A stretch of 64,000 nucleotides of DNA from NCBI RefSeq assembly GCF_002795825.1, contig NZ_CP018800.1, forward strand, positions 2,106,001 to 2,170,000, written 5' to 3'. The notes under the pieces were generated by a model. It was not told the DNA's origin. It did not search any database and saw nothing but the letters and a program-made list of their open reading frames with translations. Both the position numbers and the translations under genes were made by a program. Shown here piece by piece: positions 19,348-38,879 of this stretch; position 1 is the stretch's first letter; every line of letters starts with the position of its first letter. This DNA comes from Mariprofundus ferrinatatus (lineage in GTDB: Bacteria; Pseudomonadota; Zetaproteobacteria; Mariprofundales; Mariprofundaceae).

Positions 19348-20520
19348 ATGATGAGTCCGCCAACTATAGCCCAACCGATTGCTCAAGAAGCGCATCTGCG
19401 TACAAACAACCGTATGCGCCCGGTTGCAAATGGCCAGGCAGATGCATTTCGTCAATCACTGAGAACCCATGTCAACAACCACGAAACCGACGAAGCGAAC
19501 CTGAAGCGAATCATTCACAAGGCAGCGCAATTCAATGATCTTGATCCGGGATTGATAAGGGCTGTGATTCAGGCGCAGAGTAATTGTGATCCCAAAGCTG
19601 TATCTCCGGCAGGAGCACAGGGTTTAATGCAGCTGATGCCAGAAACAGCGGCCGAGCTCGGCATCAAGGATGCATTTGATCCGGAACAGAATGTTATGGG
19701 TGCCAGCCGCTATCTGAAAAGCCTCGTTGACCGGTACGATGGTGATATGGGTCGAGCCCTCAGGGCTTATACATGGGGCATGGGAAATGTGGATAGGAAT
19801 CCGAATCCACCACCGCTGGAGGTTGAAAGGTTTGTGGCAAAGGTTTCCGCCGCCGCATCTCTGGAAATCGCAACTTCCACAGCTGTCCGGCCATCCACCA
19901 GTACCCTGTTGGCCGAGATGTCAGCTACTATCCAAATCAGGCCAGAACAACCATTTGGGATGGATGCGGTTCAATACAAAGCGAAGCGAAGTGGTGTGGA
20001 TGGCATTATTCATCAGGCGGCCCAACACTATAACCTGAACCCAGATCTGATTGCTGCTGTTATCCATACCGAAAGTAATTTTGATAAAAATGCCGTGTCA
20101 CACGCAGGAGCTCAGGGGCTGATGCAGTTGATGCCAGCTACGGCAGCGGAACTCGGCGTCACAAACCCTTATGATCCAGAGCAGAACATCATGGGTGCCA
20201 GTCGCTACCTGAAGGGGCTTGTTGACCGTTACGATGGTGACCTGCGCCTTGCTCTTGCCGCTTATAACTGGGGAATGGGGAACCTTGAACGCCAACCCGG
20301 CAGGCTACCTGCAGAGACATCAAACTACATTGCAAAGGTACTGGCCTTGATTCCGGCAGAGGTGGAATATGCCGTGACTACAGGTGAAATGACTCCTGCG
20401 GAGCAGATTTTGCAACAGGCGGGGCAAGAGGCAATATCCCCTGACAAAATAGCACCAACCATTGGGCAGGCGACACAGACTTATGCTCGCGACGCACTTC
20501 GGATAAAAACCAGCACCTGA
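19348..20520 (+). CDS. flagellar-cluster lytic transglycosylase with two SLT domains, first one inactive-looking
   Basis: The 390-residue protein contains two tandem Slt70-type (GH23) catalytic domains. Domain 1 covers about residues 50-150 and domain 2 about 215-315. In domain 2 the catalytic Glu is in IHTESNF (E242), followed by GAQGLMQLMP and the AYNWGMGN motif. In domain 1 the same position is Gln (IQAQSNC, Q77), while GAQGLMQLMP is kept, so it should bind but not cut. No signal peptide is visible, so it may leave by the flagellar export gate. It plausibly replaces the muramidase missing from FlgJ. The start has no clear ribosome site. Confidence 0.85.
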   Translation: MMSPPTIAQPIAQEAHLRTNNRMRPVANGQADAFRQSLRTHVNNHETDEANLKRIIHKAAQFNDLDPGLIRAVIQAQSNCDPKAVSPAGAQGLMQLMPETAAELGIKDAFDPEQNVMGASRYLKSLVDRYDGDMGRALRAYTWGMGNVDRNPNPPPLEVERFVAKVSAAASLEIATSTAVRPSTSTLLAEMSATIQIRPEQPFGMDAVQYKAKRSGVDGIIHQAAQHYNLNPDLIAAVIHTESNFDKNAVSHAGAQGLMQLMPATAAELGVTNPYDPEQNIMGASRYLKGLVDRYDGDLRLALAAYNWGMGNLERQPGRLPAETSNYIAKVLALIPAEVEYAVTTGEMTPAEQILQQAGQEAISPDKIAPTIGQATQTYARDALRIKTST

Positions 20521-21318: not shown

Positions 21319-23703
21319 CTATCTCTGGTTCGCACTCATTGCAGTGATCTGCTGACTTAACCACGCTCCTGTGGCATTGGATTGAGACATAAACCGTTCC
21401 ATCGCCAAGAACTGGCTCATAAGGCGCTCCCGCTCCTTGTCCAACTGCAAGGTAAGGCTGTCAATCTGTGATTGTAGACTGTCATATGTACTAACTGATG
21501 AATCAACACTCATCTGAGTTAGACCGGTAACAGGAAACGTATAAGCCTCCAGAGTGCTGCTCATTTGGGCTGCAAGCCCAAGGTTCACGGACATAGTACC
21601 AACAGCCCCTGTGGCTGTTCCGGAGTAGGCCAGCAATAAGCCATCAATATTTCCGCTGCTTCCGGTAAGTACCTGTCCATTTCCTGTGGCAGCAATGCCA
21701 CCAATTGTTCCAGCTACATCCTGACCAGCATATGTCTGGTCAATAATGCCCAGGTTATTGGCGGACTGTGCAACCGTGAAGCTCTCCGCAGATCCATAAT
21801 CATTGCTCTGCAGCTGCAGGAAGTTTCCGGAAGCGGAAGCGCTAAGCTGCATGGCATGACGCCCCTCCTGAACAACCGTATCAGCTCCGAATGCAAGGGA
21901 TCCCCCGCCTTCATTGTTAGCGGTCATAGAGAGTGTAAGATTACTATCCCCAGACTGATTGTCAGTAATGGTGACCTGTCCTGATGCATTCAAACTGGCC
22001 GCAACATTCTGACCAAATTCCACCTGAATGGAGGCCAAAAGATCCGCAATAGTGTCAGTTGCCGGATCCGCAACAGTAAAAGTATAGTTAACTGCAGAGC
22101 CGAATCGGTTTGTGCCGCCAATAGTAATGGTGTCTCCCGCCACAATTCCAAGGCTGCCACCGGCGCCATCGGTCAAATCCTGCAACAGCGAAGCGCTGGT
22201 GGCAGGCGTACCAAGGCCGGTGACCAGAGCCGTGCTCATCTGGCGCTGCTCTGTATAGGTTGCAGTAAACTCAGCATTAAGAGCTGAAACAATACTACTC
22301 AAACTCTGACCATTGGTAAGGTTCACTACAGCCTGGCGAGCTGATCCATCTGTAATGGTCACCTGCTCGGCTCCGGCAAGTCCGCCCGAAAGGTCCGTTG
22401 TGCCAGTGACTGTCGCCTGCAGGGCAGCAGCTGTAATATTCACTGCATAGCTGCCAGCTACTGTGTTCGCTCCATATGTTAGGAATTCCAAGGCAGAATT
22501 GTTGCTCGTACCGCTTGCTGCGAAAAGATCCCGTACGGAGTTAGGATCTGTGCTCAGAAGGTTATCCAGTCTGGATGAATTGATGCCAAGATGTCCTTTG
22601 CTGTCCGGCTCTACGCCGATCATGGCCAGGCTATTTCTGTCGCTGGCCAGACCCGAAACAGTGCTAAGCAGGCTTCCAGCTAGCTGAGACTTGACCTGGC
22701 GTAATAAGGACTCATTGGCAAGGGGGCCGCTTGTCTTGGTATCAGGGTTGAAAGTCATTTGCGTATTGATGAAGTCCATGACCTCATTGTAGCTATCTAC
22801 AACCGCTTGAACCTTCCCCTTCACCGCCGCCGTATCAACAGACGTATTCACTGTGATGGTTGTAGCTGGGTCGGCACTTTTCAAATCAAGCGTATAGCCG
22901 GCAAGGGCATCACTGATCGAGTTGCTTTCACGGCTAATTGTAAGGTTGTCCACATCGATAGAGGCATCAGCCGCAGCCTGCAGGGTTTGCCTTGCATTAC
23001 CCTGGGCAGCAGCACCAAGCTGCAGGTTGGCAAGACCTCCAGCCGCATCCAGATCTGTACCGGCAAGATTTACCACACCATTGGTCAAGCCGGTATCATC
23101 GGCGGCCAGAATCAGACGGAAATCACTGGCTCCAACCTTGAGAATGCTTGCGCTCACGCCAGTGGCATCACTGCCCGTATTCAACTGGTTGATTTTATCC
23201 CTTATGTCTCGAAGTGAGTCCGTACTTGCCACATTGATGGTTTTTGCACTCGCGGATTTACCCTGAATGGTAAAAGTGCCAGCTGTATAGCCTAGCCCAG
23301 CCGTATCACTGGTAATAGCAGTGCCTGTAGAGTCTTTGACGGCTGAGCTTGAGCCCAGTTTCTCAGCGGCAGCCAGCTGATTTACCTTAATGGTGTGACT
23401 GCCCGCTGCAGCGCTTGATGAAGGTGTTACAGTCAGTAGTGAATCTGCACTGGTAGCGGTATTGCTTCCAAGCGTTGACTGGTTTACCAGAAAATTAGCT
23501 TGGTTAGCCAGTTCGAGAAACTTGGAACGCAGTGATGAGAGTGATGAGTCCAATTGACTAATGAGCCTCTGCTTGATCAACTCATCAGCCTGCTTGTCTT
23601 GCAAGAGGGTTACCTTTCTACCCTCAATCTTCATTAGCTGATCGACAATGTTTGCCGAGTCAATGCCTGACGATAATCCTGATATGCTACTGCTACTCAC
23701 CAT
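21319..23703 (-). CDS. fliD: filament cap protein FliD, long form
   Basis: The 794-residue cap protein starts MVSSSSISGLSSGIDSANIV after AGGAG. N-terminal coiled coil (residues about 20-70) and C-terminal helix (SLTLQLDKERERLMSQFLAMERFM) are typical. It is longer than most FliD proteins; residues about 400-700 look like repeated beta-rich inserts with hook IN-like motifs (QSLSSIVSALNAEF; DTIADLLASIQVEF). It caps the filament and folds flagellin subunits. It is the only fliD in the window although flagellin, FlaG and FliS occur twice. Confidence 0.96.
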   Translation of the reverse strand: MVSSSSISGLSSGIDSANIVDQLMKIEGRKVTLLQDKQADELIKQRLISQLDSSLSSLRSKFLELANQANFLVNQSTLGSNTATSADSLLTVTPSSSAAAGSHTIKVNQLAAAEKLGSSSAVKDSTGTAITSDTAGLGYTAGTFTIQGKSASAKTINVASTDSLRDIRDKINQLNTGSDATGVSASILKVGASDFRLILAADDTGLTNGVVNLAGTDLDAAGGLANLQLGAAAQGNARQTLQAAADASIDVDNLTISRESNSISDALAGYTLDLKSADPATTITVNTSVDTAAVKGKVQAVVDSYNEVMDFINTQMTFNPDTKTSGPLANESLLRQVKSQLAGSLLSTVSGLASDRNSLAMIGVEPDSKGHLGINSSRLDNLLSTDPNSVRDLFAASGTSNNSALEFLTYGANTVAGSYAVNITAAALQATVTGTTDLSGGLAGAEQVTITDGSARQAVVNLTNGQSLSSIVSALNAEFTATYTEQRQMSTALVTGLGTPATSASLLQDLTDGAGGSLGIVAGDTITIGGTNRFGSAVNYTFTVADPATDTIADLLASIQVEFGQNVAASLNASGQVTITDNQSGDSNLTLSMTANNEGGGSLAFGADTVVQEGRHAMQLSASASGNFLQLQSNDYGSAESFTVAQSANNLGIIDQTYAGQDVAGTIGGIAATGNGQVLTGSSGNIDGLLLAYSGTATGAVGTMSVNLGLAAQMSSTLEAYTFPVTGLTQMSVDSSVSTYDSLQSQIDSLTLQLDKERERLMSQFLAMERFMSQSNATGAWLSQQITAMSANQR

Positions 23704-23714
23704 TTTGAAAGCTC

Positions 23715-24083
23715 CTAGGCATTCCTATCAAGGATCATGCCAATCATCTCACTCATGGCGGCCTGCTGCTCAATGAGCTTCTTGGGCGGTATTTCCCGCA
23801 CGACTTCGCCTGTTGCGTTATCCTTGATCTGCACATAGAGCCTGTTCAAACGCTCTTCATAACCAAAGCTCAACCGCTCGCTTGAAGCTGCTGTTAATCT
23901 GGCATTCGCTTGCGCAACAGCCTCCTTAACAGCCTCACTATCAACAGGTGCGTCTTGCTTCTGTACCGTTTTATCCAAATCTTTCGAATTGCTTACAACA
24001 AGGGGCTTTTGCTGCGCCGCTGTCCCTATGGCACTAGAAGTAGCTGTTGATGAAGCAATATTATTAATATTGATTGCACTCAT
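23715..24083 (-). CDS. flaG: FlaG protein, copy 1
   Basis: A 122-residue protein with a variable Ser/Thr-rich N-terminus and the FlaG domain in the C-terminal half (FGYEERLNRLYVQIKDNATGEVVREIPPKKLIE). FlaG influences filament length in polar flagella. A strong AAAGGAGG precedes the ATG. It lies between fliC1 and fliD and differs from copy 2 only in the last residues (DRNA versus DKSV). The fliC1 terminator just upstream implies that FlaG is expressed by read-through. Confidence 0.93.
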   Translation of the reverse strand: MSAININNIASSTATSSAIGTAAQQKPLVVSNSKDLDKTVQKQDAPVDSEAVKEAVAQANARLTAASSERLSFGYEERLNRLYVQIKDNATGEVVREIPPKKLIEQQAAMSEMIGMILDRNA

Positions 24084-24110
24084 AACAATTTACCTCCTTT
24101 TGGGTTTTGA

Positions 24111-24151
24111 AAGAAAAGAGGCCGGCAAAGGTTTTCGCCTCAACCGGCCTC
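24111..24151 (-). terminator. Rho-independent terminator after fliC1
   Basis: On the minus strand a perfect 8-bp stem (GAGGCCGG / CCGGCCTC) closes an 18-base loop and is followed by TTTTCTTT. It stands between the flagellin stop and flaG, so it should separate abundant flagellin mRNA from the downstream flaG-fliD-fliS-fliT message. An identical copy follows fliC2. Confidence 0.85.
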
Positions 24152-24180
24152 TCCTTCTACTCATGGATCAAGCTGATTGA

Positions 24181-25017
24181 TTACCTGAACAGTGAAAGAA
24201 CGTTCTGCGAAGACTGGTTGGCCTGAGCCAGCATCGATGTGCCGGCCTGCACCAGAACCTGAGACTTCGTGAAGTCAGCCATCTCCTTCGCCATGTCGGC
24301 ATCCTTGATGGTTGAGATCGAGGCACTTACCTGCTCCATCTGAGTCGCCAGATTAGCACTTACGTAGCTCAACTGGTTCACAGCAGCACCAAACGAAGCA
24401 CGGTCTGTAGTCAGGCCGTCCAGTGCAGTATTGAGGGTGTCAATAGCTGTAGCTGCACCCGATGCAGTAGTGAGGTCAATAGCAGCAATACCCAGGCCGG
24501 TTGTGGCTGTGGTAAAGTCTGCACTGAAATCAACCGCCACCTGGTCATTAGCACTGTTTGCAGCGCCAACCTGGAAGGTGGTAGTTGAAGCCCCGGAACC
24601 GTCGAGCAGCTTGGTACCGTTGTAGTTAACACCGTTGGCGATTTTGTCGATCTGACCAAGAAGGTTAGCGGCCTCGCCAGCCAGCTTGGTGCGCTCATTT
24701 GCACCGTTGTTCGCACTTGCAGCCTGAGTTGCCAGAACCTGCAAACGACGAACCATGTTCTCAATCTCATTTACACCAGATTCAGCAGTTTTCACCATGG
24801 CGGTTGCCTGAAGTGAATTCTGAGAAGCTGCTTCCAGTTTACCCTTCTCGCCCTGAAGCTTGGCTGAAATCGCATAACCTGCTGCATCGTCTGATGCAGA
24901 GTTAATCCGGAAGCCCGAAGACAGGCGCTCCAGTGACTTGTTCATGTTTGACGAGTTGATGTTCATGTTCTTCAGGGCTGAAATGGAACCCATATTGGTT
25001 TGTACGGACATTGGCAT
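24181..25017 (-). CDS. fliC: flagellin, copy 1
   Basis: The 278-residue flagellin has conserved D0/D1 ends (SLERLSSGFRINSASDDAAG; ADFTKSQVLVQAGTSMLAQA, ending LSLFR) and a short, Ser/Thr/Ala-rich middle (about residues 135-200) instead of large D2/D3 domains. Those residues are plausible O-glycosylation sites given the neighbouring island. Copy 2 differs in the protein only at residue 2 (Pro here, Ala there). It has its own sigma-28 promoter, a CsrA-type leader and a terminator. Confidence 0.97.
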   Translation of the reverse strand: MPMSVQTNMGSISALKNMNINSSNMNKSLERLSSGFRINSASDDAAGYAISAKLQGEKGKLEAASQNSLQATAMVKTAESGVNEIENMVRRLQVLATQAASANNGANERTKLAGEAANLLGQIDKIANGVNYNGTKLLDGSGASTTTFQVGAANSANDQVAVDFSADFTTATTGLGIAAIDLTTASGAATAIDTLNTALDGLTTDRASFGAAVNQLSYVSANLATQMEQVSASISTIKDADMAKEMADFTKSQVLVQAGTSMLAQANQSSQNVLSLFR

Positions 25018-25119
25018 AATATTCTCTCCTTAGTATGTATAATAGGTTACGTAAACGACATCATGCCCTGTTACGTTCGAGCCTCTGAGCTCTTCCGGGA
25101 AGATTCTTTCCTCCGGTAC
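25018..25119 (-). promoter_or_regulatory. fliC1 leader with GGA motifs (probable CsrA target) and hairpins
   Basis: The roughly 100-base leader holds GGA motifs near its 5' end (CCGGAGGAAAG), in the middle (CCCGGAAGAG) and over the ribosome site (CTAAGGAGAG). A stem CGTAA/TTACG lies between them. This is the layout of CsrA-repressed flagellin leaders. The same elements recur in the fliC2 leader although intervening sequence has drifted. Confidence 0.55.
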
Positions 25120-25125
25120 AGATAT

Positions 25126-25152
25126 CTATCGCCAGAGAAATCTCCAACTTTA
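25126..25152 (-). promoter_or_regulatory. sigma-28 promoter of fliC1
   Basis: Minus strand reads TAAAGTTG, an 11-base spacer, then GGCGATAG: -35 matches 7 of 8 and -10 matches 6 of 8 of TAAAGTTT-N11-GCCGATAA, with exact spacing. RNA should start near 25119. Confidence 0.85.
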
Positions 25153-25279
25153 AATTTTTTCAGAAATTTCTGGCAGCTTGTATCGCGATACTTTTTGGGG
25201 TTATGGAGTAACCTGATACTTTATTGCAAATGCAGGCTTACCATTGGACGCTGCCTGCAGGAAACGCTTGGCACTTCTC

Positions 25280-25917: not shown

Positions 25918-26286
25918 TTAAACACTCTTGTCAAGGATCATGCCAATCATCTCACTCATGGCGGCCTGCTGCTCAATGAGCTTCTTGGGCGGTATTTCCC
26001 GCACGACTTCGCCTGTTGCGTTATCCTTGATCTGCACATAGAGCCTGTTCAAACGCTCTTCATAACCAAAGCTCAACCGCTCGCTTGAAGCTGCTGTTAA
26101 TCTGGCATTCGCTTGCGCAACAGCCTCCTTAACAGCCTCACTATCAACAGGTGCGTCTTGCTTCTGTACCGTTTTATCCAAATCTTTCGAATTGCTTACA
26201 ACAAGGGGCTTTTGCTGCGCCGCTGTCCCTATGGCACTAGAAGTAGCTGTTGATGAAGCAATATTATTAATATTGATTGCACTCAT
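25918..26286 (-). CDS. flaG: FlaG protein, copy 2
   Basis: Identical to copy 1 over the first 118 of 122 residues, including the whole FlaG domain, and ending DKSV. It is preceded by the same AAAGGAGG and lies downstream of fliC2 and its terminator. The 3' end marks the edge of the near-identical repeat; beyond it the two loci diverge (fliD in one, fliS2 in the other). Confidence 0.92.
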   Translation of the reverse strand: MSAININNIASSTATSSAIGTAAQQKPLVVSNSKDLDKTVQKQDAPVDSEAVKEAVAQANARLTAASSERLSFGYEERLNRLYVQIKDNATGEVVREIPPKKLIEQQAAMSEMIGMILDKSV

Positions 26287-26313
26287 AACAATTTACCTCC
26301 TTTTGGGTTTTGA

Positions 26314-26354
26314 AAGAAAAGAGGCCGGCAAAGGTTTTCGCCTCAACCGGCCTC
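26314..26354 (-). terminator. Rho-independent terminator after fliC2
   Basis: An exact copy of the terminator at 24111-24151: 8-bp stem GAGGCCGG/CCGGCCTC followed, on the minus strand, by TTTTCTTT. Confidence 0.85.
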
Positions 26355-26383
26355 TCCTTCTACTCATGGATCAAGCTGATTGA

Positions 26384-27220
26384 TTACCTGAACAGTGAAA
26401 GAACGTTCTGCGAAGACTGGTTGGCCTGAGCCAGCATCGATGTGCCGGCCTGCACCAGAACCTGAGACTTCGTGAAGTCAGCCATCTCCTTCGCCATGTC
26501 GGCATCCTTGATGGTTGAGATCGAGGCACTTACCTGCTCCATCTGAGTCGCCAGATTAGCACTTACGTAGCTCAACTGGTTCACAGCAGCACCAAACGAA
26601 GCACGGTCTGTAGTCAGGCCGTCCAGTGCAGTATTGAGGGTGTCAATAGCTGTAGCTGCACCCGATGCAGTAGTGAGGTCAATAGCAGCAATACCCAGGC
26701 CGGTTGTGGCTGTGGTAAAGTCTGCACTGAAATCAACCGCCACCTGGTCATTAGCACTGTTTGCAGCGCCAACCTGGAAGGTGGTAGTTGAAGCCCCGGA
26801 ACCGTCGAGCAGCTTGGTACCGTTGTAGTTAACACCGTTGGCGATTTTGTCGATCTGACCAAGAAGGTTAGCGGCCTCGCCAGCCAGCTTGGTGCGCTCA
26901 TTTGCACCGTTGTTCGCACTTGCAGCCTGAGTTGCCAGAACCTGCAAACGACGAACCATGTTCTCAATCTCATTTACACCAGATTCAGCAGTTTTCACCA
27001 TGGCGGTTGCCTGAAGTGAATTCTGAGAAGCTGCTTCCAGCTTACCCTTCTCGCCCTGAAGCTTGGCTGAAATCGCATAACCTGCTGCATCGTCTGATGC
27101 AGAGTTAATCCGGAAGCCCGAAGACAGGCGCTCCAGTGACTTGTTCATGTTTGACGAGTTGATGTTCATGTTCTTCAGGGCTGAGATTGAACCCATGTTG
27201 GTTTGTACGGACATTGCCAT
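26384..27220 (-). CDS. fliC: flagellin, copy 2
   Basis: A 278-residue flagellin identical to copy 1 except for Ala at residue 2; the genes differ at only a handful of mostly silent bases. D0/D1 ends are conserved and the middle is short and Ser/Thr-rich. It has its own sigma-28 promoter (27328-27354). It is the flagellin nearest to the giant glycosyltransferase, which is transcribed away from it. Confidence 0.97.
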   Translation of the reverse strand: MAMSVQTNMGSISALKNMNINSSNMNKSLERLSSGFRINSASDDAAGYAISAKLQGEKGKLEAASQNSLQATAMVKTAESGVNEIENMVRRLQVLATQAASANNGANERTKLAGEAANLLGQIDKIANGVNYNGTKLLDGSGASTTTFQVGAANSANDQVAVDFSADFTTATTGLGIAAIDLTTASGAATAIDTLNTALDGLTTDRASFGAAVNQLSYVSANLATQMEQVSASISTIKDADMAKEMADFTKSQVLVQAGTSMLAQANQSSQNVLSLFR

Positions 27221-27321
27221 AATATTCTCTCCTTAGTGTTTCTTATATATTTTTCGTAACGACATCATGCCCTGTTACGTTCGAGCCTTGGCTCTTCCGG
27301 GAAGGTTCTTTCTCCCGGCAC
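27221..27321 (-). promoter_or_regulatory. fliC2 leader with GGA motifs (probable CsrA target) and hairpins
   Basis: GGA motifs occur at GCCGGGAGAAAG, CCCGGAAGAG and the ribosome site CTAAGGAGAG, as in the fliC1 leader. Two stems are clear: GAGCC-AA-GGCTC, and CGTAAC/GTTACG around AGGGCATGATGTC. The second stem is CGTAA/TTACG in fliC1, so the pairing is kept while the flanking bases changed. Confidence 0.55.
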
Positions 27322-27327
27322 AAATAT

Positions 27328-27354
27328 CTATCGCCAGAGAAATTTTTAACTTTA
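27328..27354 (-). promoter_or_regulatory. sigma-28 promoter of fliC2
   Basis: Minus strand reads TAAAGTTA, an 11-base spacer, then GGCGATAG, the same quality and spacing as at fliC1. RNA should start near 27321. Confidence 0.85.
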
Positions 27355-27498
27355 ATTTTTTATGGATTCCTGTGGCAACTTGTATCGTGATGCTTATTGA
27401 TAGAGCTATGAGGACAGCCTGGTGCTTTAGTGCATATTCAAATGGTAGCCACTGATCGGCAAGGGCACTCCGGCTTCAGTAGCCAATGCCACAAAGGG

Positions 27499-27575: not shown

Positions 27576-30500
27576 ATGACCAAAACCAACTCATTGTCCG
27601 CACTGAAGCTGACGAAAAAAATTCGCAAATACATGGAGAGTGGTGACATCAACAATGCAGAACTGGTCTGTGATAATGCACTCCCCAAAAACAAAGAAGA
27701 CCCTGACTTTCTATTCCAAGTTGGATACGTGTACTATGTTCGCAAGCGTTATAGCGAAGCTGCAGAGGCTCTCAGAAAAGTTCTACAAGTGCGGCCTCGG
27801 GATCCTAGTGCGCGCCTGACATTGTGGGGCGTCTATAGAGATGCAGAGGATTTCGATCAGATGCTAACACTTGCCCATGAGTTTGCCCGTGCTCCCCTGA
27901 GTGCCGATGAACTGCTTCTGGCTTTCAGGAGCTATCTTGCTGTCTTAGATTGGAAGCGTGCGGAAAAAATACAAGCCCAGGTCATCGAGCTTCTTCATCA
28001 TGGTAAAATGACCCCCACGCTAGCTTCAGCCGTGTTCATTGAATTATGCACTATCCCAAGTCTATCGTCAGAAATAGTATATAATATCCATAGGAACTGG
28101 GGAGACAACCTGGTTGGAAGCGTGCAGCCGTTCTACACCTCTAACACCCCTGCACCTTCAGTCAACGAACGCTTAAAAATTGCATACGTATCAGCTGATT
28201 TTAATGCACATCCTGTTGGCATGTTTATGCATCAGCTCATTCGCCTGCACGACAAAACAAAGTTTGAGGTCTATTGCTACGCCCATATAGAAAAAGAAGA
28301 TTCAATGACTAGATATTTCCGTACACATGCTGAGCATTTCATCGATATCACAGACCTAAACGATGGGCAATTGGCAAAGCATATTCATACTGACGGAGTC
28401 CATATTCTTATTGATCTAGGTGGGTTCACGAGCAACTCGAGGGTGGGTTCCCTGGCTTACAAACCGGCCCCGGTACAGATCTCCTACCTTGGTTATCCAA
28501 ATACAACTGGCCTGCCGACAGTTGACTATCGTATTACAGACAGATTTGCAGAGTGTGATGAGGGAACACGATATGTGGAAAAACTTCTCTACATGCCACA
28601 AAGCTTTCTCTGCTACAGCGCACAACTGGCTCCACCACCAGCCAATGGTGCTCCTGTTGAACGTAATGGTTTTATTACCTTCGGTTCTCTAAATCATTTA
28701 AGAAAATTGACACCTCAGACCATTGAGGCTTGGAGCAGAATCCTGAACCGTGTTCCCGGTTCAAAGTTCGTAATGAAAGCAAGAAGTGTCGAGTCCGGAG
28801 GTGCTATCATCCTGGACAATATCTTGCGTGAGTTCGCGAGCCACGGCATTGAAGCGGAACGCATTTTGTTCCTTCCATATGTGGATAGCCACAAGGAACA
28901 CATGCTACAGTACAATGAGATCGACATTGTACTTGATACCTTCCCCTACAACGGCACGACGACCACCTGCGACTCCCTGATTATGGGCGCACCTGTTGTA
29001 ACAATCATCGGCAAAACACATGCACAGCGCGTCTCCTACTCTATTCTGAAAAACATCGGCTATGAGGAGACGATTACCGACAGTGTAGACTCCTATGTTG
29101 AAAAGGCCGTACAGTTAGCGGGGCAACCGGAAAATCTTTCCATGCTGAGGAAAGTTTTACCTGCCCTGTTCAAGCACTCCAGCCTTCATCAGCCGGATCA
29201 GTTTACCCGGCAGATGGAAGACCTTTTTCTACAGGCCTGGCAGGAGAAAATGGGGGAGGCGGCCTTTACGAAGGCGGTCGCAGCCACCATGAACGATGAT
29301 ATTTCTATCATGGTGCCTCAGGACCTTAACGAGATAACAACGTATGTACTATCTGAGCAGGGTGATTGGTATGAAGATGAATTGCGCTTTTTGCGCCTGA
29401 TCACCAAGCCGGGTATGCGAGTACTGGACTTAAGTCCGGAGTATGGCTGTTTCTGCTTAAGCCTGGCGAAACAGGTAGGGGAAGCAGGCAAAGTACTGGC
29501 GCTGCAGAGCGATGCCAGTAAGCGTAAACTCCTGGAAGAGAGCACAAGACTAAATGAATTTGATTGGCTGCAAATCGAAAGCGGCAACAACATGTCTGCC
29601 GTCTTGCAGGGCGGCATCGATATCATCATTCACCCATCAGGTGGGGTCGATTCTATATCTCACAAGCTGGATATCCCGGCTGACAGCTCTCCGGTTGTGA
29701 TGCTCCATGGCATCGACAAGGGGGGCATTAACACCTCCCTTATCATGCATATGCAACAACTTGGATATATTCCCTATCGCCTGCTGCCAGGGTTGAACAC
29801 TCTAATAGCTATAACGGAGGATTATTCACCTGGGTCGTGGCATCAACAGCTGTTTTTCTGTAAGCCGGAGAGAGCTGATGCGCTTGCCTCGGAAGGGTTC
29901 CTGATCCAACAGGAGCTGGAATCAATTGAGTTGCCTGATGACCAGTCATACTGGATCAACGCCATCGAACACCGCCCTTTCGCCGACGGGCTATTACCTC
30001 GCTGGATAGAGCAGGTTAAGGCGCAACAGGTTTCTAAAGAGTGGGAGTTGGTGCAAGCCGCATTATGCGCCTACGCCATGGCAAACCAAAGTGATACCAC
30101 GACAGAGCAACGCTATGCCTTTCTGTCAGCATCCCTGAACATTCTGCTGAATACGGAAGGGCTCCTATCCAACACGGCACGTTTATCCACCGTTGTACGT
30201 ATTGCCTCTGAACTAGGAAATTATAATGCCGCCAAGCAGGCATCAGAGATGGTCGCAGAAGGCATAAAAACCCTCCAAGAATTCACGGCCAGTGAGCCTT
30301 TCCTGCCAATGTCGAAGAAACACGACAGTGAGACTGTGCACAACAACCTTGCCGAATGGATGCTGGCCCAAGCACTCGCGCAAGCAGAGTTGTTAATAAA
30401 CCCAACATCGTTCTCTTCGAGCCTCGAACACCTGACTCAGCTTAATGCTGAGCTTTCCAATCTAGGGCTCCCGAACGAAGAGTTAAAATATAGAGAGAAA

Positions 30501-31772
30501 CTTCTGGCCGCCAAGAATGCGGGTGAGTTCAAAAGCTTTGAGACCCTGAGAGCACCGAGGTTTTCCATTATCATTCCTACTAGGGAACGCCACGACACGT
30601 TGCAGTCAGCGATTGAGAGTGCGTTGAATCAGCAGGAGTTCGATGATTATGAGATCATCGTCATGGACAACCTCAGTTCAGAGGATACCTATAATGTAGT
30701 TTCCTCCTTCAGCGATGATAAAATCAAGTACTTCCGCTCATCGGAAAGGTTACCGATGAATGAGAACTGGGAGCTAGGATTTAGTCATAGCCAAGGCGAA
30801 TATGTATTTTTTCTCGGCGACGATGATGCCATCATGCCGGATGCTCTCGTCATTGCAGATGCATTAATCAGAAAATATCAAAGTGACATTGTGACATGGA
30901 GAAAAGCAGTCTATTGGTGGTCTAACTCTATCGTCCCCTTCCAGCGGGGAAGGCTTCACGCCTCTCTGAGAGAGAAAAGCATCAGCCTGATGAACTCTAG
31001 GGAGATGCTAAAGAAGTACTGTGCTCACAAAATTGTCTATGATGACCTCCCTGGCCTCTACAACTCTTTCGTACATCGAAAGATAATTGACAAGATAAAA
31101 TCGATGCATGGGCGCTATTTTATAACCCAGAACCCAGATGCATCCTCAGCAATTCTAAATGCATATTTTTCAGACCAATACTGCTACACCGATAGAGCCC
31201 TATCTCTATCTGGCAACTCCAAAAACAGTGCTGGGTCTAGCTATATGTGGTCGCATTTGCTGAATAAAGACCAAAAAGAAAAATTAACGCAATGGAATGC
31301 AGAACTTCCCCAGCAGATAGAGTTTACGCAAAATGGCTGCAAACGAACCATCGACTATGGAAAATTCTGTAAAGAACAGATAACAGACTCAACAATGCTG
31401 CCTGTGCTAATGGCGAGAGAATTGCTTGTGAATAAAGAAATATTCTTTCCAGATGACGCAGAGATCAACTTCGATCCCCCTGCCCTTTTGAATGCCATGG
31501 CTGGGAGCATAAATATAAATCCTCATAGATATGAACAAACTCTCACGGAGATAAAGGAACTAGCAAAAATTCATAGCCTAAGCATCGACTTCTCTAAGAT
31601 TCCAGAAAAGATTGCTTTCGATCACGCTCCACTTCAGGGGTTCAACCCCAATTCAATGATGATAAGTATCAACTGTGCTCAGTGCGGCATTGAGACCGCT
31701 GCACATGCAGCCAAAGCATTGCAAAGCATCTGGACCGATTGGCATGCTTGGCTTGCAGAAATCAATCGATAA
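27576..31772 (+). CDS. giant fused glycosyltransferase: TPR + GT41/SPINDLY type + methyltransferase-like + GT2
   Basis: A 1398-residue cytoplasmic protein. TPR-like helices occupy about residues 10-130. A GT41 (O-GlcNAc-transferase/SPINDLY-like) catalytic region spans about 199-560, with RLKIAYVSADFNAHPVGMF, DILIDLGG-type and PYNGTTTTCDSLIMGAPVVT (around 456) signatures. A degenerate Rossmann methyltransferase-like part lies at about 605-760 (MRVLDLSPEYGCF). A helical linker leads to a GT2 domain from about 991 (FSIIIPTRERHDTLQSAIES) with the DxD-type GDDDA near 1078. The ATG at 27576 follows GGGAG by eight bases. Position beside flagellin and a sigma-54 site suggest flagellin O-glycosylation, with GT41 adding the first sugar and GT2 extending it (inference). 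Confidence 0.88.
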   Translation: MTKTNSLSALKLTKKIRKYMESGDINNAELVCDNALPKNKEDPDFLFQVGYVYYVRKRYSEAAEALRKVLQVRPRDPSARLTLWGVYRDAEDFDQMLTLAHEFARAPLSADELLLAFRSYLAVLDWKRAEKIQAQVIELLHHGKMTPTLASAVFIELCTIPSLSSEIVYNIHRNWGDNLVGSVQPFYTSNTPAPSVNERLKIAYVSADFNAHPVGMFMHQLIRLHDKTKFEVYCYAHIEKEDSMTRYFRTHAEHFIDITDLNDGQLAKHIHTDGVHILIDLGGFTSNSRVGSLAYKPAPVQISYLGYPNTTGLPTVDYRITDRFAECDEGTRYVEKLLYMPQSFLCYSAQLAPPPANGAPVERNGFITFGSLNHLRKLTPQTIEAWSRILNRVPGSKFVMKARSVESGGAIILDNILREFASHGIEAERILFLPYVDSHKEHMLQYNEIDIVLDTFPYNGTTTTCDSLIMGAPVVTIIGKTHAQRVSYSILKNIGYEETITDSVDSYVEKAVQLAGQPENLSMLRKVLPALFKHSSLHQPDQFTRQMEDLFLQAWQEKMGEAAFTKAVAATMNDDISIMVPQDLNEITTYVLSEQGDWYEDELRFLRLITKPGMRVLDLSPEYGCFCLSLAKQVGEAGKVLALQSDASKRKLLEESTRLNEFDWLQIESGNNMSAVLQGGIDIIIHPSGGVDSISHKLDIPADSSPVVMLHGIDKGGINTSLIMHMQQLGYIPYRLLPGLNTLIAITEDYSPGSWHQQLFFCKPERADALASEGFLIQQELESIELPDDQSYWINAIEHRPFADGLLPRWIEQVKAQQVSKEWELVQAALCAYAMANQSDTTTEQRYAFLSASLNILLNTEGLLSNTARLSTVVRIASELGNYNAAKQASEMVAEGIKTLQEFTASEPFLPMSKKHDSETVHNNLAEWMLAQALAQAELLINPTSFSSSLEHLTQLNAELSNLGLPNEELKYREKLLAAKNAGEFKSFETLRAPRFSIIIPTRERHDTLQSAIESALNQQEFDDYEIIVMDNLSSEDTYNVVSSFSDDKIKYFRSSERLPMNENWELGFSHSQGEYVFFLGDDDAIMPDALVIADALIRKYQSDIVTWRKAVYWWSNSIVPFQRGRLHASLREKSISLMNSREMLKKYCAHKIVYDDLPGLYNSFVHRKIIDKIKSMHGRYFITQNPDASSAILNAYFSDQYCYTDRALSLSGNSKNSAGSSYMWSHLLNKDQKEKLTQWNAELPQQIEFTQNGCKRTIDYGKFCKEQITDSTMLPVLMARELLVNKEIFFPDDAEINFDPPALLNAMAGSININPHRYEQTLTEIKELAKIHSLSIDFSKIPEKIAFDHAPLQGFNPNSMMISINCAQCGIETAAHAAKALQSIWTDWHAWLAEINR

Positions 31773-32387: not shown

Positions 32388-33185
32388 TTAATCAATTCGT
32401 TTTAGAAAACCGTCCCACGATGCCGATAAGACAATTTTGTGCTCGATCTGCTTGTCGATTTCAAAACGGATGTTACCCCCCCGGCGTTCACAACGGTCAA
32501 GGTATTCAAGCAACGCAGTCTTTGGGTTATTACCCTTACCCCATGGGCGGTCGATCACGAAATCCTCCGGCATATCCTCCAGCCCTGAGTCCCAGACTAC
32601 ACAATAGCTTCCTACAGTTGTCAGCTCCGCATAAGCCTCTAATTCTGCCAACACGTGCTCATGGGTATGGTTTGAATCCAGAAACACCATGATCCGTTTA
32701 TATTTCGAGGCCAGATTCTTGACTTGGGTCACCACTTCAGGGTCGATAGAAGAACCCTGGATCATTTCAATTTTATGTGCCATTGGATGTGCTTCAATAG
32801 CCTTACGATTATGTGCCCGAATATCAATATCGACACCCACCACCTTGCGCCCAACCACTTTCGGATCAAGTACTGTTCCAGCTTCCACAGCATCACAGTA
32901 GTCCAATAAAGCCAGCATCGAAGCGCTCATGATCAATGAGCCACCATGGGCAATTCCCGTTTCAATGATAAGATCAGGTTTTACTCGCCAAACCAGCTCC
33001 TGAACAGCGTAAATATCCTGAGGGATCTGAATAATAGGACGTCCGAGCCAACTAAAATTATATGCATATTGGTGCCCACCCGCTTCTCGAATCCAGTTAT
33101 TTGAGAGATTCATAAAAGATAGGTCTTCCCCTATTTTCTTGACATTATTCTGCACAAATAGCTCGAACTTCCTGTTCTCATCCAT
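32388..33185 (-). CDS. CmcI/cephalosporin-hydroxylase-family methyltransferase
   Basis: The 265-residue protein matches the family of SAM-dependent O-methyltransferases annotated as cephalosporin hydroxylase or rhamnosyl O-methyltransferase. Signatures are LIIETGIAHGGSLIMSASML (SAM site, about residue 72), GVDIDIRAHN and the metal-binding VFLDSNHTHEHVLAELE. It overlaps the FkbM gene upstream by 8 bases and is the last gene of the operon. Likely methylates a hydroxyl on the sugar made or attached by this island. Confidence 0.85.
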   Translation of the reverse strand: MDENRKFELFVQNNVKKIGEDLSFMNLSNNWIREAGGHQYAYNFSWLGRPIIQIPQDIYAVQELVWRVKPDLIIETGIAHGGSLIMSASMLALLDYCDAVEAGTVLDPKVVGRKVVGVDIDIRAHNRKAIEAHPMAHKIEMIQGSSIDPEVVTQVKNLASKYKRIMVFLDSNHTHEHVLAELEAYAELTTVGSYCVVWDSGLEDMPEDFVIDRPWGKGNNPKTALLEYLDRCERRGGNIRFEIDKQIEHKIVLSASWDGFLKRID

Positions 33186-34374
33186 AATTAATCTCCTTTG
33201 TTTTCATAGAAGCCGGAACTGCATAACAGACAGTTTCCCACAACGAACCAGCTGCATGATGCCTGATGAATAGATCATAAAAAGAAAAATGATCGTGAAT
33301 GAATAAAGGGATATCCAACAAGTGGCTAGTCTGATGGTAAATACAAACCGCCAATTTCGGCTTGCATCGTTTGATGACCTCCCTCGCCCCATCCAATGCA
33401 TCCAGTTCAGCGCCTTCGATATCCATTTTGATCATTGTCGGGCAACTATTTACGAGGAAATCATCCAGGCTTATTGATGGAACGTCTCCTTCGACAGCCT
33501 GATCCCTACAGTTATGAAAATCCGAACCTTTGGATCGACCCACTGTGTTACCGACTGCAGAGTGAATAACCTCCACATCCTCAAACCCGTATTTATTCAA
33601 CGATTGAATCGCCCCGGCGATATTCACCTTATCAACATCAAAGCCGATGGCGCTAAATGCCCCTATTCCGGAATCCTGCATGAAGGAAAAATAGGAAAGC
33701 AGAGTATCGCCATCAAAACTGCCGCAATCAATCAACAACTCCCCTTCTGAAAAGCTGAATATATCTTTCTGGAAGTATTGCGGATAGCAGGCGGAGTTCG
33801 CCAGCAACACGTTTCCTGGCATTGAGAAATGAAATTGCTGGAACATGCGGGCCTTTGCGACATCCATTAAGATCTTACGTGATGCACTGTCTGCGAGCAG
33901 ATGAAACAATTCAGAAAACTTGCCCCTGTTCCGATACAGCCAGTGACCGGAAAAATACCCGACAGAACCATCCTGTTCTGCAAATAGATAGGAAAACCCT
34001 TGGGCATCAAGCATATCCTGGATTCCAGAGGTAATCATCGCAGCAATCACTACAAGCGGAGCATGTTGATCGGAGAACAGACTGTCAGGGCTGCAAACCG
34101 GAATACCTGCAATCTCACCACCCCACTTTTCCTCATTGCTATCGACGCAATAGGCAGGCGCTATTCCATAGCGCGCTTTCCAGGCATTGATAACACTTAG
34201 GGCAAAACGACCCGCGCCATAAAGAACGATATTTTCCGAATGAACGAGCAATGAATCAGGGTCGTTCTTTACGAACAACGGATGCTGCATGGCCATACTA
34301 TCACACACTTGCCATAGCTCTTCCGGACTGCCGGCTCTCCGAAGCTGTAAATAGCAGTTAGCAAAATCCATCAA
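33178..34374 (-). CDS. FkbM-family methyltransferase with N-terminal nucleotide-binding-like domain, copy A
   Basis: The 398-residue product has an N-terminal Rossmann-like region (IVLYGAGRFALSVINAW, then AYCVDSNEEKWGGEIAGIPV). The FkbM methyltransferase domain follows from about residue 215 (LLIDCGSFDGDTLLSYF; later MIKMDIEGAELDALDGA). The same two-part layout occurs in the gene at 37716. It overlaps the radical SAM gene by four bases (ATGA). FkbM enzymes O-methylate sugars or related hydroxyls; the substrate here is unknown. Confidence 0.85.
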   Translation of the reverse strand: MMDFANCYLQLRRAGSPEELWQVCDSMAMQHPLFVKNDPDSLLVHSENIVLYGAGRFALSVINAWKARYGIAPAYCVDSNEEKWGGEIAGIPVCSPDSLFSDQHAPLVVIAAMITSGIQDMLDAQGFSYLFAEQDGSVGYFSGHWLYRNRGKFSELFHLLADSASRKILMDVAKARMFQQFHFSMPGNVLLANSACYPQYFQKDIFSFSEGELLIDCGSFDGDTLLSYFSFMQDSGIGAFSAIGFDVDKVNIAGAIQSLNKYGFEDVEVIHSAVGNTVGRSKGSDFHNCRDQAVEGDVPSISLDDFLVNSCPTMIKMDIEGAELDALDGAREVIKRCKPKLAVCIYHQTSHLLDIPLFIHDHFSFYDLFIRHHAAGSLWETVCYAVPASMKTKEINYG

Positions 34375-36077
34375 TGGCTACTCCACGATGGCAGGACGGC
34401 GAACGATTCGATCATCCCTTCAATGTTCTGCCTGTATGTCTCGAACATCTGTTTTGACAATGATTCTGTCGCTACAAGCTTGGGAATCCTGTTTACGTAT
34501 TCCTGGGCTAAATCATCCATACCCAGTTCGTGATAACATTTTGCAATACAAGCAACGGCAACGATATGCCATGGATGGTTGTTCACTATCTTATCCAGCT
34601 TGGGAACAATTGTATCGTAGTGGCCATGCTCGATATTATAGTTATGGAAGAAATTCAGTTTGATATTGTAATCATACACAAGTTCAAAAAGTTCTTTGCC
34701 CGAAATCTCTTCGGTATCGAAAGGCCGCTCCCTGAACCCCTGAGTCGAGCTATCCCAGACCTCGATTAACTTCTCCTCAGAAATCTCTCCTTTTTCAATC
34801 AACACATCCGTCATCGTCGTTCCTGGATACGGGTATGCAATAAAGAAGGTAATCCAGTCTACAGGCGCCGTCCTCAAAAACTCAAATGTCTCATCCATCA
34901 ACTCTCGCGTTTCTCCCGGCGATCCAATGACAATATTCACCCCGGTAAAGACGCCGCGACTACGGGTGAAATCAAGGAGTCTCAATGCCTTTTCGATATC
35001 TACCCGTTTTTTTATAATCTTTTGCTGAACATATTTCGAGCCCGACTCAAGTGGAATCGTCACTGCTTCCAACCCGTGATCGACAAGAGTGTCGATCATC
35101 TCTTCATTGAACACGGAGACCGCCAATCCTGCGGGCACACTCAAATCAAACTTTAGCTCCTTTCTTTTCACTTCTTTGAAAAAGTCGAAGAAATATTCTT
35201 TATTCGAACCAAAGAGATCGTCCACAATATTAATCTGGTTCACGCCATATTCGTTGATCAGATATTCAATTTCTCTCATCATGTATGCGATGCTATTAAA
35301 ATAAATTTTCTTGCCGTGAACCTTGCTTGCAGAGCAGTAGGTGCAGGGATACGGACAACCCCGGGACATAAATATTGTAGCAATTCTGGCCCCTTCCTTT
35401 TTGATCGGAGCGGTGGACTCATGCGCCATCAAATAATCCATATCGAGCAATTCGTACGGGTATCTCGGAATCCGGTCCAGATCGTAGAGGACCTGTCCCA
35501 TATTCATGATATTGTGCAAACCGGTCACTATTCCTGGAACGGAACTGATATCATCACCATTTTCAAGACATGTCAGCAATTGAGGGAATGAGAGGTCTCC
35601 CGGACCTCTGATCAGAAAGTCGATACTGTCATTAACAATGATGTGTGAACTAAACGTCGTAGCATGCATGCCGCCAACAATAATTTTCGTTTCTGGCCAC
35701 CTCGCTTTGCACATTTCAGCAACTTTCAATGTGATCGAATGACCATTGGAGAAGTTCAAGGACAATCCAATAAAGTCGGGAGCACAGCCAACCGCATCCA
35801 GTTTCATCGAGATAAACTCTTCAATGGTTGTGCCATGAATCCGATCACGCTTTACCGCTTTATGAAGCTCCATCATCAGATCGAGGATCTGCAGATCGTG
35901 ATGCGGCAACTCCTGTTTGCACCACGCGGCAAGTGTCATCACCCCGAGTGGATAGGATATATATATCGGAACATCTCTCGCCTTGCCATCGAGCATCTCT
36001 TCCATAATTTTCAAAGGGACACCAAATGAATTAATGAGCAGCGTCTTCTTCGACTTCGTATCTCTGTTTATCACCAA
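34371..36077 (-). CDS. B12-binding-type radical SAM protein, copy A
   Basis: A 568-residue protein with an N-terminal cobalamin-binding-like Rossmann domain (PDFIGLSLNFSNGH, KIIVGGMHATTF; the usual DxHxxG histidine loop is not obvious). The radical SAM core carries CPYPCTYC (about residues 240-248) and the SAM-contact MSRGC region. A C-terminal TPR-like tail (WHIVAVACIAKCYHELGMDDLAQEY) completes it. Family members perform C- or P-methylation or ring rearrangements. It sits 4 bases downstream of a second protein with the same layout; the pair is flanked by FkbM genes. Confidence 0.88.
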   Translation of the reverse strand: MVINRDTKSKKTLLINSFGVPLKIMEEMLDGKARDVPIYISYPLGVMTLAAWCKQELPHHDLQILDLMMELHKAVKRDRIHGTTIEEFISMKLDAVGCAPDFIGLSLNFSNGHSITLKVAEMCKARWPETKIIVGGMHATTFSSHIIVNDSIDFLIRGPGDLSFPQLLTCLENGDDISSVPGIVTGLHNIMNMGQVLYDLDRIPRYPYELLDMDYLMAHESTAPIKKEGARIATIFMSRGCPYPCTYCSASKVHGKKIYFNSIAYMMREIEYLINEYGVNQINIVDDLFGSNKEYFFDFFKEVKRKELKFDLSVPAGLAVSVFNEEMIDTLVDHGLEAVTIPLESGSKYVQQKIIKKRVDIEKALRLLDFTRSRGVFTGVNIVIGSPGETRELMDETFEFLRTAPVDWITFFIAYPYPGTTMTDVLIEKGEISEEKLIEVWDSSTQGFRERPFDTEEISGKELFELVYDYNIKLNFFHNYNIEHGHYDTIVPKLDKIVNNHPWHIVAVACIAKCYHELGMDDLAQEYVNRIPKLVATESLSKQMFETYRQNIEGMIESFAVLPSWSSH

Positions 36078-36081
36078 CTGA

Positions 36082-37731
36082 TTACCCCTCTACCGGCGAC
36101 TTAAGCAAACCATATTTCACAGCCTTGGACCTCCACCACTCATCACTGGCAACAATCTCGTTGAACTTTTTCATACACTTGTCTGCAGAGGCCAAATCCA
36201 TACCGGACAATTTACAGGCCATCCCCAGAAAATATTGGCCAAATGCGTGATCTGGATATTTCTCACAAACATTCTTGAAGTACTTAATCGCGGTAGAGTA
36301 ATTCTCAATTTTCATATTGTGATTTTCAACGAAGTTCGCGACCAAGTTCATATGATAGGCGATATCGGCAATTGCATCCGGGTCAACGCCAGGCGCCCTA
36401 ATCACCGATTTGGTATTGATAAAATCGAGTGGGTTGCTGTTCTCGATGTAGCCGTTATCAGCACAGATATCGTAGAGTCTGCTACCGAAGATCGGAATTG
36501 CACAATAGATATGTGCCCAATCGAAACCGCTGTCAATCATCATCTCGAGCGTCTCCTGCCGATGCTCATCCATCTCGCCAGGCAAACCAATCACAATAAA
36601 GACATGGCTCTGCACGCCATGCCTGCGAAGGGCCTCCACAGCTGGCTTAATCAGCTTCTTCTTCAACGGCTTCTTAATCAGGTGATCGAGCACATAATCG
36701 GAACCTGACTCTACGGCTAATGCCACGGTTGAAACCCCGGCTTTAGCAAACAGTTCGGCCACCTCATCGTCGATGGCATAGACTGCCACCCCATTGGGGA
36801 ACTCGATTCGAATATCGAGGTCAATCAAGCGCCGCAGAACATCCTTGGCGCGTTCCTTATCATGAAAGAAGTGGTCATCCTCGATCATCAACACAGTCAG
36901 CCCGAACTCGTCGCGCATGCGTTTGACCTCCGCCTCCACACGATCAACTGACATTGTGCGCACCGCCCGCCCGTGCAGCGATGGATTAGAGCAGAAGACA
37001 CAGAGAAACGGGCAACCGCGAGAGGTATGGATCGCCATCTCCCGCTTCTTCATGCCGATATAGCGCTTATCGATTGAGCGGGAGTTGTAGTGGTTGAGAT
37101 CGATCGTCCGGTAATCAAGCGGTGGAATATCATCAAGATTCTGCACAAAGGTATGACCCGGCTGTTTACCAACAGCTAGGCCGCTACGGGTAATCCAAGA
37201 TTGGTGCGATTCCAGCAGTGCACTGCGGTCATCAGTATCAATTAAATCGGCTAGCGGGATCTCTCCCTCACCCTTGCAAACCGCATCGATCGAAGGGCAA
37301 TAGCCCAACATGCGATCGAATGCGGCGGAAGGCAGTCCTCCTCCAGCTGTCACCAAGACATTCGGTAACGCCTGTTTTACCACAGTGGCTATATCCTCGA
37401 TATAGCGAAAGGAGGAGTTGAACAGTGCTGACACCCCTACGATATCGGCTTGAAAACAAGTTAAAGCCTTCGCCACTTCATTATTCAGCATCGCCAATAC
37501 CTGATCCTGACTTACTCCTGGCTGCCCGAGTATCTGTGCCAGAGGCACATTCAGATCAAGAATCGCGGTTTCAACTGATGCTTCGCAACGCGCTTTGATA
37601 TAGGCATCCAGCGATAACACGCCATAGGGCATGGTAAAAGCAGGCAGAACATTTGTACGATCCTTGCTGATAAAATCATCCAGATTGAAATAGGGCGGAA
37701 TGACAAATAGGACATTTACTTGCTTTGGCAT
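36082..37731 (-). CDS. B12-binding-type radical SAM protein, copy B
   Basis: The 549-residue product starts MPKQVNVLFVIPPYFNLDD, nine bases after GGAGC; a longer frame upstream would lie inside the FkbM gene. It has a cobalamin-binding-like domain (ADIVGVSALFNSSFRYI, VLVTAGGGLPS), the radical SAM cluster CPFLCVFC near residue 240, and a C-terminal TPR-like repeat (AIKYFKNVCEKYPDHAFGQY). Distant similarity to copy A over the full length suggests an old tandem duplication. Substrate unknown. Confidence 0.88.
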   Translation of the reverse strand: MPKQVNVLFVIPPYFNLDDFISKDRTNVLPAFTMPYGVLSLDAYIKARCEASVETAILDLNVPLAQILGQPGVSQDQVLAMLNNEVAKALTCFQADIVGVSALFNSSFRYIEDIATVVKQALPNVLVTAGGGLPSAAFDRMLGYCPSIDAVCKGEGEIPLADLIDTDDRSALLESHQSWITRSGLAVGKQPGHTFVQNLDDIPPLDYRTIDLNHYNSRSIDKRYIGMKKREMAIHTSRGCPFLCVFCSNPSLHGRAVRTMSVDRVEAEVKRMRDEFGLTVLMIEDDHFFHDKERAKDVLRRLIDLDIRIEFPNGVAVYAIDDEVAELFAKAGVSTVALAVESGSDYVLDHLIKKPLKKKLIKPAVEALRRHGVQSHVFIVIGLPGEMDEHRQETLEMMIDSGFDWAHIYCAIPIFGSRLYDICADNGYIENSNPLDFINTKSVIRAPGVDPDAIADIAYHMNLVANFVENHNMKIENYSTAIKYFKNVCEKYPDHAFGQYFLGMACKLSGMDLASADKCMKKFNEIVASDEWWRSKAVKYGLLKSPVEG

Positions 37732-38879
37732 AATCGCTCCCTCGGAATGGCATAGACTACTGCTCCAGTGCCGCACCAGCTGTGCAGCCTGAACAGCATC
37801 TGGTAGTTCTCCAGCTGCTCGTCTAACAAGTATGGCAAAGCCCATAAGCCGAGCCGATTATGATATGCCGTTGCAGCCACAATAGGCCGCTGAATCTTTA
37901 ACATCTCTATTGCTCCCTTAAGTGCGGAAAACTCTCCACCCTCCAGATGCAGCTTCAGGTAATTCACCTCAGGAATAGCCAAGTCATCCAGTCGTACGAC
38001 TTCTACTTCATCGCTGCCAAGCACATTGAGTTGAGAAACGTAATCCAATCCCGCACTGAATGCAGACCTGCCTTTAAATTCTGCTACTGCCAGGCAGTAC
38101 GAACTGATTCTAACATCTGTGTCGGCCAATTCGGCACAAGCCTGGTAGTTCAACGGGTCAGCCTCAATCATAGTAATAGAACGAACATCCCCCATACGAT
38201 CCAGCCACTGCCGGCTCACTTCACCGAGGTGTGCCCCCACATCGACCAGTGATTCGTTCGGCCTCAGGCGCGACATCAGTTCGGGAATGAAATAGCGGTC
38301 GCCGGTCGTTACCGGTGCCCCTTCAAAGCTCCACTCCTCGCGCAGCGAATGCCAAGCGATAAACTGCAGGTGATGTGCCCGTGAAATATCATCATCCCAA
38401 CGTGCAAGTATGGTGGTGATTTTGGCCACATCGCCTTCCAATGGCCCCGAAAACCACCCGTTGCCGAGCGGATGTCGATCCCTGTATGCCTCGCAGATAT
38501 CGTAAAACGGCACCACATCCCGCCAGCCGGCTGCATGCAGTGCCAGCTCAAGCGGAACAATGGGAAGCGTGGCGATACAGACTGCAAGCATCGCTTCCCG
38601 CTTAAGTGTTTCAGGTACCGCATCAGCACTATAGAGCGAGACGCCTAGCCAGAAGGGATCGTTCTTATGCGCAGCAACATCGGCATCGACGACTGCCTCG
38701 ACCGGTATGCCGAGATAATTGAAATAGGATCTGGCCATGCGCCCAAGATTGCCGGCGCCGTAGAGCACCAGCGGAGACTCAACCGGGCGCGGTGCCACCA
38801 CCGGCTCTGCCTCAGCTATCCTCTTCAGCAAGACATTTGAAGCCGCCGGATCAGGCAGAGGAAAATGACGCTCGATCAC
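37716..38879 (-). CDS. FkbM-family methyltransferase with N-terminal nucleotide-binding-like domain, copy B
   Basis: A 387-residue protein: N-terminal LVLYGAGNLGRMARSYFNYLG Rossmann motif, then an FkbM domain from about residue 205 (SLVDVGAHLGEVSRQWLDRM, YLKLHLEGGEFSALKGAIE). In place of the KxDIEGxE block of copy A it reads KLHLEGGE, so the usual acidic residue is changed. It overlaps the GT4 gene (ATGA) and the radical SAM gene by 16 bases. Same architecture as the gene at 33178. Confidence 0.82.
   Translation of the reverse strand: MIERHFPLPDPAASNVLLKRIAEAEPVVAPRPVESPLVLYGAGNLGRMARSYFNYLGIPVEAVVDADVAAHKNDPFWLGVSLYSADAVPETLKREAMLAVCIATLPIVPLELALHAAGWRDVVPFYDICEAYRDRHPLGNGWFSGPLEGDVAKITTILARWDDDISRAHHLQFIAWHSLREEWSFEGAPVTTGDRYFIPELMSRLRPNESLVDVGAHLGEVSRQWLDRMGDVRSITMIEADPLNYQACAELADTDVRISSYCLAVAEFKGRSAFSAGLDYVSQLNVLGSDEVEVVRLDDLAIPEVNYLKLHLEGGEFSALKGAIEMLKIQRPIVAATAYHNRLGLWALPYLLDEQLENYQMLFRLHSWCGTGAVVYAIPRERLCQSK

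Follow-up and report, generated by a model that had tools for sequence, protein, structure and literature searches.

A TPR-GT41-GT2 fusion protein with a degenerate methyltransferase core, encoded beside flagellin in Mariprofundus ferrinatatus, as a candidate one-chain flagellin glycan assembler

Several systems of flagellin glycosylation provide the closest described counterparts of the protein analyzed here. FlmG of Caulobacter, a flagellin O-glycosyltransferase of 596 aa that combines TPR repeats with a GT-B transferase, uses pseudaminic acid (PMC7591256). The flagellin islands of Enterobacteriaceae encode, in the fliC region, GT41 proteins with a methyltransferase domain, and GT41 and GT2 are mutually exclusive in each strain (PMC4875605). 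For the type B flagellin of C. difficile, the transferases GT1, GT2, and GT3 have been described, with initiation by GlcNAc and extension by rhamnose, one of these transferases carrying a methyltransferase domain (PMC5207246).

The window, that is, the whole stretch of 64,000 nucleotides of the Mariprofundus ferrinatatus genome that was analyzed, contains one open frame on the plus strand (27576-31772) that, by open-reading-frame analysis, encodes a protein of 1398 aa from an ATG start (an alternative GTG start is possible 15 bases upstream), in agreement with the original prediction of a single frame of ~1400 residues. The combination of TPR repeats, a SPINDLY/OGT-type GT41, and a GT2 transferase in this frame, also predicted, was recovered by Pfam, with matches to Glyco_transf_41 (PF13844, E 1.2e-63) and, at residues 997-1103, Glycos_transf_2 (PF00535, E 1.6e-20), along with weak matches to TPR repeats. 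The reading that we favor, with a probability of about 0.6, is that this protein is a cytoplasmic one-chain assembler of a flagellin glycan, which GT41 would initiate and GT2 would extend, the latter probably using a CDP-linked branched deoxysugar; we infer the acceptor and the sugars. The gene comprises the following parts:

27576-31772, plus strand: whole gene, fused protein TPR-GT41-(probable) pseudoFkbM-helical-GT2-CTD (frame, Pfam, full-length orthologue in genome G011)
27624-27818, plus strand: TPR repeats, residues ~17-81 (Pfam TPR_19/ANAPC3, E ~2e-5)
28068-29249, plus strand: GT41 catalytic part, residues ~165-558 (Pfam, SPINDLY match, OGT-aligned residues)
29283-29855, plus strand: degenerate FkbM-type methyltransferase core, residues ~570-760 (alignment, predicted fold)
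29868-30530, plus strand: helical domain after the FkbM module, residues ~765-985 (alignment, predicted fold)
30555-31280, plus strand: GT2 (GT-A) domain, residues ~994-1235 (DxD at 1082-1084, PD at 1187-1188)
31281-31769, plus strand: C-terminal domain (CTD) of the GT2 subfamily, also present on standalone GT2 proteins (loci L122, L170, L171)

The fused frame is not an assembly artefact because a full-length orthologue, 85% identical, is encoded in a second genome available as a single contig (G011); the exact five-part architecture is known from these two sister genomes only. The G+C content of the gene is 47%, compared to 53% in the window, and that of the GT2 end is lower still (43-45%), which suggests that parts of the gene are of foreign origin.

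The best solved relative of the 1398-aa protein is Arabidopsis SPINDLY (residues 165-558, E 6e-83). Alignment with human OGT and SPINDLY revealed no loss of GT41 catalytic or donor-binding residues: His212, His276, Lys377, His442, and Asp466 match OGT His498, His558, Lys842, His901, and Asp925, respectively, which are the catalytic or donor-binding positions. The protein shares the GT41 family and its key residues with plant SPINDLY and human OGT but differs from both in the extra C-terminal modules and the bacterial flagellin context. SPINDLY is a fucosyltransferase; the GT41 part scores best against SPINDLY, a score from which the donor class cannot be read. In the complete M. ferrinatatus genome, this protein is the sole GT41, and neither the Maf-core domain (PF01973) nor NeuB (PF03102) gave a match. 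With FlmG, the protein has in common the N-terminal TPR arm (weakly matched here), a GT-B transferase, and solubility, and FlmG acts on flagellin; however, FlmG lacks the methyltransferase and GT2 parts, and, given the absence of a NeuB match in the genome, the GT41 part is unlikely to use pseudaminic acid as FlmG does.

A distance of 355 bp separates the start of the gene from a divergent flagellin gene, and transferase and sugar genes adjoin fliC, with the following features on the minus strand:

21319-23703, minus strand: fliD-like filament cap gene with flaG- and fliS-like neighbours (named by resemblance and gene order)
26384-27220, minus strand: flagellin gene, the divergent neighbour (near-identical copy at 24181-25017)
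32391-33185, minus strand: CmcI/rhamnosyl O-methyltransferase (PF04989, E 1.4e-86)
38879-40162, minus strand: group 1 (GT-B) glycosyltransferase (PF00534)
41261-42172, minus strand: NAD-dependent sugar epimerase/reductase (PF01370)
42124-43347, minus strand: sugar C-methyltransferase (PF08421 and PF08484)
43347-43901, minus strand: RmlC-type 3,5-epimerase (TIGR01221, above cutoff)
43901-45022, minus strand: CDP-glucose 4,6-dehydratase, RfbG (TIGR02622, above cutoff)
44989-45813, minus strand: glucose-1-phosphate cytidylyltransferase, RfbF (TIGR02623, above cutoff)

The last five genes (41261-45813) make up the CDP-glucose/C-methyl-deoxysugar set of the island. The flaG-like and flagellin genes lie in a segment of ~1.47 kb that is duplicated with 97.6% identity (23728-25197 and 25931-27399), and genome G011 carries three flagellin copies. 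The flagellin island also encodes two B12-binding radical SAM enzymes (34371-37845), close to a CmcI O-methyltransferase and two FkbM-like proteins, and upstream of the flagellar genes, a protein with two putative lysozyme-like (SLT) repeats was noticed by eye (19348-20520). A search of plasmids for near matches to the flagellar region found none.

Across Zetaproteobacteria, a GT41 of the window type (E below 1e-50) was detected in 17 of the 78 genomes of the class. A clear FliC is present in 15 of these 17 genomes, the remaining two being incomplete assemblies, and in all 15 the FliC and GT41 genes are neighbours, so that the association with flagellin anticipated across homologues was borne out (Fisher p 0.002 for co-occurrence, not corrected for relatedness). 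FliC is found also in 28 of the 61 GT41-negative genomes, which implies that a cell does not need the enzyme to have a flagellum. These 28 genomes could be taken to indicate that the substrate is not flagellin and that the adjacency marks an insertion hotspot, but the adjacency in 15 of 15 testable genomes, together with flagellin genes next to the FkbM-helical module in other phyla (L085, L147), makes this explanation most improbable. Under the favored reading, the TPR arm is presumed, by analogy with FlmG, to bind flagellin and would hold it before export, and the GT41 part, with its catalytic positions kept, should transfer the first sugar to Ser/Thr of flagellin, gene adjacency pointing to the acceptor.

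The core between the two transferases produced no Pfam match to the FkbM methyltransferase. Nevertheless, residues ~570-985 align over the full length with the FkbM-plus-helical module of sister proteins that match PF05050, and AlphaFold2 confidently predicts a class I methyltransferase fold (model of residues 561-985, pLDDT 90), with structural matches reaching Z 15.7 over 170-176 residues; the family profile of the core also matches solved methyltransferases, including an FkbM protein. This alignment and fold vindicate the label of a degenerate SAM-like Rossmann motif. Residues 561-985 were modelled separately; when residues 561-1398 were modelled as one piece, the GT2 and CTD parts were poor and the Foldseek matches uninformative. 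The description of a methyltransferase-like core applies to the fold but not to the activity: the FkbM SAM motifs (DIGAN.G, FEP, D.EG.E) are lost, with DIGANYG changed to DLSPEYG, FEP to LQS, and the ELN block and LDAEGEE gone along with a block of ~41 residues. DIGANYG, FEP, and LDAEGEE are intact in four sister proteins and lost in the window protein, its orthologue, and loci L022, L028, and L024. Judging from the motifs, the core is probably a relic FkbM module, an inactive pseudo-enzyme.

A scan of the collection with the alignment of the FkbM-helical module identified 71 loci in many phyla, including Mariprofundus and other Zetaproteobacteria; a contig scan with a single protein as the query found no match. 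Most of these loci encode standalone proteins of ~470 aa, to which the module of the window protein is homologous although fused and devoid of the motifs; many contain a GT41 gene, and some are near flagellin. This widespread and apparently unnamed family (for example, L085, L092, L096, L147, and L149), in which an FkbM methyltransferase is followed by a C-terminal helical domain, often shares its locus with SPINDLY-type GT41 genes. Small variations aside, the motifs are kept in all 52 standalone copies but are lost in 6 of the 17 GT41-fused copies (Fisher p 1e-4, ignoring relatedness), and the copy in locus L122 (Myxococcales), in addition to these six, is partly degenerate. In a quick tree with long branches, the degenerate copies form two supported, separate groups, one from Mariprofundales and the other combining L112 with L122; thus, on the sequences compared, the degeneracy is restricted to GT41 fusions and arose in two lineages. 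We also considered that the degeneracy might occur only where GT2 follows, but rejected this because degenerate copies with no GT2 fused to them are found in L028/L084 and L112. The confidently kept fold and the invariance of a single Asp and a single Gly in motif I could indicate that the core still works, binding SAM or another ligand through altered motifs and methylating the glycan; this is very unlikely given that the core lacks four elements retained in the 52 standalone copies: GAN in motif I, the acidic FEP loop, the ELN block, and LDAEGEE. On the relic reading, the FkbM module presumably methylates the glycan in the sister proteins where it is intact, and the window core has most likely lost SAM binding and would act, together with the helical domain, as a spacer or scaffold.

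In the GT2 domain, the catalytic Asp residues are kept: both DDD (1082-1084) and Asp1188 are conserved across the subfamily, apart from DDD in L173 and L035. The AlphaFold model has low confidence over the GT2 and CTD parts, and the domain geometry is not readable from it. The nearest relatives of the GT2-CTD module are standalone proteins. Locus L122 encodes, in an ORF truncated where the contig ends, a stretch that, as we read the sequence, is the C-terminal end of a GT41, followed by the MT-helical module and a TGA; the GT2-CTD gene starts in the same frame at the codon right after this TGA (41% identity overall) and is in turn followed by the RfbF, RfbG, CMT, and RmlC genes. Probably, the fused gene originated by the joining of a GT41-FkbM gene to a following GT2-CTD gene. 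In one case (fla-fliD-fliS-Maf, given as G374 and L173), GT2-CTD is a separate gene inside a Maf flagellin island. These two arrangements support the role of GT2 as the extender, and the original interpretation, an initiating plus an extending transferase acting on flagellin, accordingly finds partial support in the GT41 residues, the flagellin link, and the gene context of GT2.

Alternatively, GT41 might modify flagellin while the fused GT2 extends another acceptor (a surface polysaccharide or lipid carrier), being merely tethered or in the course of loss. Two close standalone relatives (G019, G020) belong to sugar-gene clusters with no flagellin within the stretch seen, and most of the remaining GT2 relatives lie away from flagellin genes. 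We regard this alternative as unlikely because the GT2 catalytic residues are kept, two species have the fusion beside fliC, this GT2 type is also present in the Maf flagellin island and beside the GT41-like end, and G016, G038, and G009 have GT41 fused to a different GT2 type beside fliC.

The RfbF-RfbG-RmlC-CMT set is found near GT2-CTD in 8 of the 15 sampled loci (the window, G011, G019, G020, L122, G374, G232, and G332), lying in the same island 9-17 kb from GT2 in the window and G011, and the full CDP pathway is not nearby in the other 7. Because this set recurs beside GT2-CTD, the likeliest donor of GT2 is a CDP-linked C-methyl 6-deoxyhexose. One could instead assign the CDP-branched sugar to GT41, with GT2 adding a common sugar on top, given that the pathway is inside the flagellin island and that a genome without a nonulosonate synthase leaves the initiating sugar unspecified; yet the pathway tracks the GT2 subfamily even where GT41 is not adjacent (the Maf island, L174, and L175), and several GT41-positive genomes lack the C-methyltransferase, so that this assignment appears doubtful. 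In the one-chain assembler that we favor, the second sugar, added by GT2, would most likely be a C-methylated 6-deoxyhexose that is CDP-activated, produced via the RfbF-RfbG-RmlC-CMT-epimerase route, and possibly decorated by the O-methyltransferases of the island.

If this reading is correct, the protein is a naturally occurring synthase that carries out two steps of protein O-glycan assembly within one chain, and a CDP-linked branched-sugar pathway would be tied to flagella. C. difficile GT1/GT2/GT3 follow the order proposed here, initiation and then extension by dedicated transferases, but are encoded as separate chains, all of which contain a PF00535 (GT2-superfamily) domain. The Enterobacteriaceae proteins also combine, in the fliC region, a SPINDLY-type GT41 with a methyltransferase domain (the likeness of the latter being one of domain type), whereas the window protein adds a GT2 in the same chain and has a degenerate methyltransferase. 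The original prediction identified the extension as the new part. As GT41-methyltransferase fusions beside fliC have already been reported, novelty is confined to the putative GT2 extender and the probably dead core; neither an initiator plus extender in one chain nor a decayed methyltransferase core was found in the open-access literature searched, which is weak evidence of novelty.

After the same GT41, beside flagellin, relatives carry an FkbM methyltransferase (L023, L029, L030, L032), and further C-terminal modules include a sulfotransferase (L029), a second methyltransferase type (Methyltransf_11; L030 and, by sequence, L025-L028), and GT2 (the window, L021, L022, L024, L031). GT41 and GT2 share one frame in five genomes of the class (G000, G011, G016, G038, and G009), with two GT2 types. 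Given this swapping of end modules, the 1398-aa protein can be viewed as an assembly line for flagellum sugars within a single chain. More tentatively, and with less confidence than in the assembler itself, one polypeptide may initiate and extend a cytoplasmic protein O-glycan around a pseudo-methyltransferase scaffold in which catalysis was lost twice independently after fusion to GT41, on a modular GT41 platform that would set the flagellin glycan of each species through its terminal module (methyl cap, sulfate, or second sugar). The domain swaps (methyl, sulfate, sugar) could be used in glyco-engineering and in studies of the handover from GT41 to a second active site, and the core provides an example, open to testing, of a methyltransferase domain retained for its structure after loss of the cofactor site. 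Other arrangements were also observed: in Cyanobium/Synechococcus (L097, L106, L107), the order is reversed, with the MT-helical module first and GT41 last, and locus L074 (2760-19999) encodes five long TPR-GT41 proteins in tandem, some exceeding 1200 aa and one with an intact MT-helical module.
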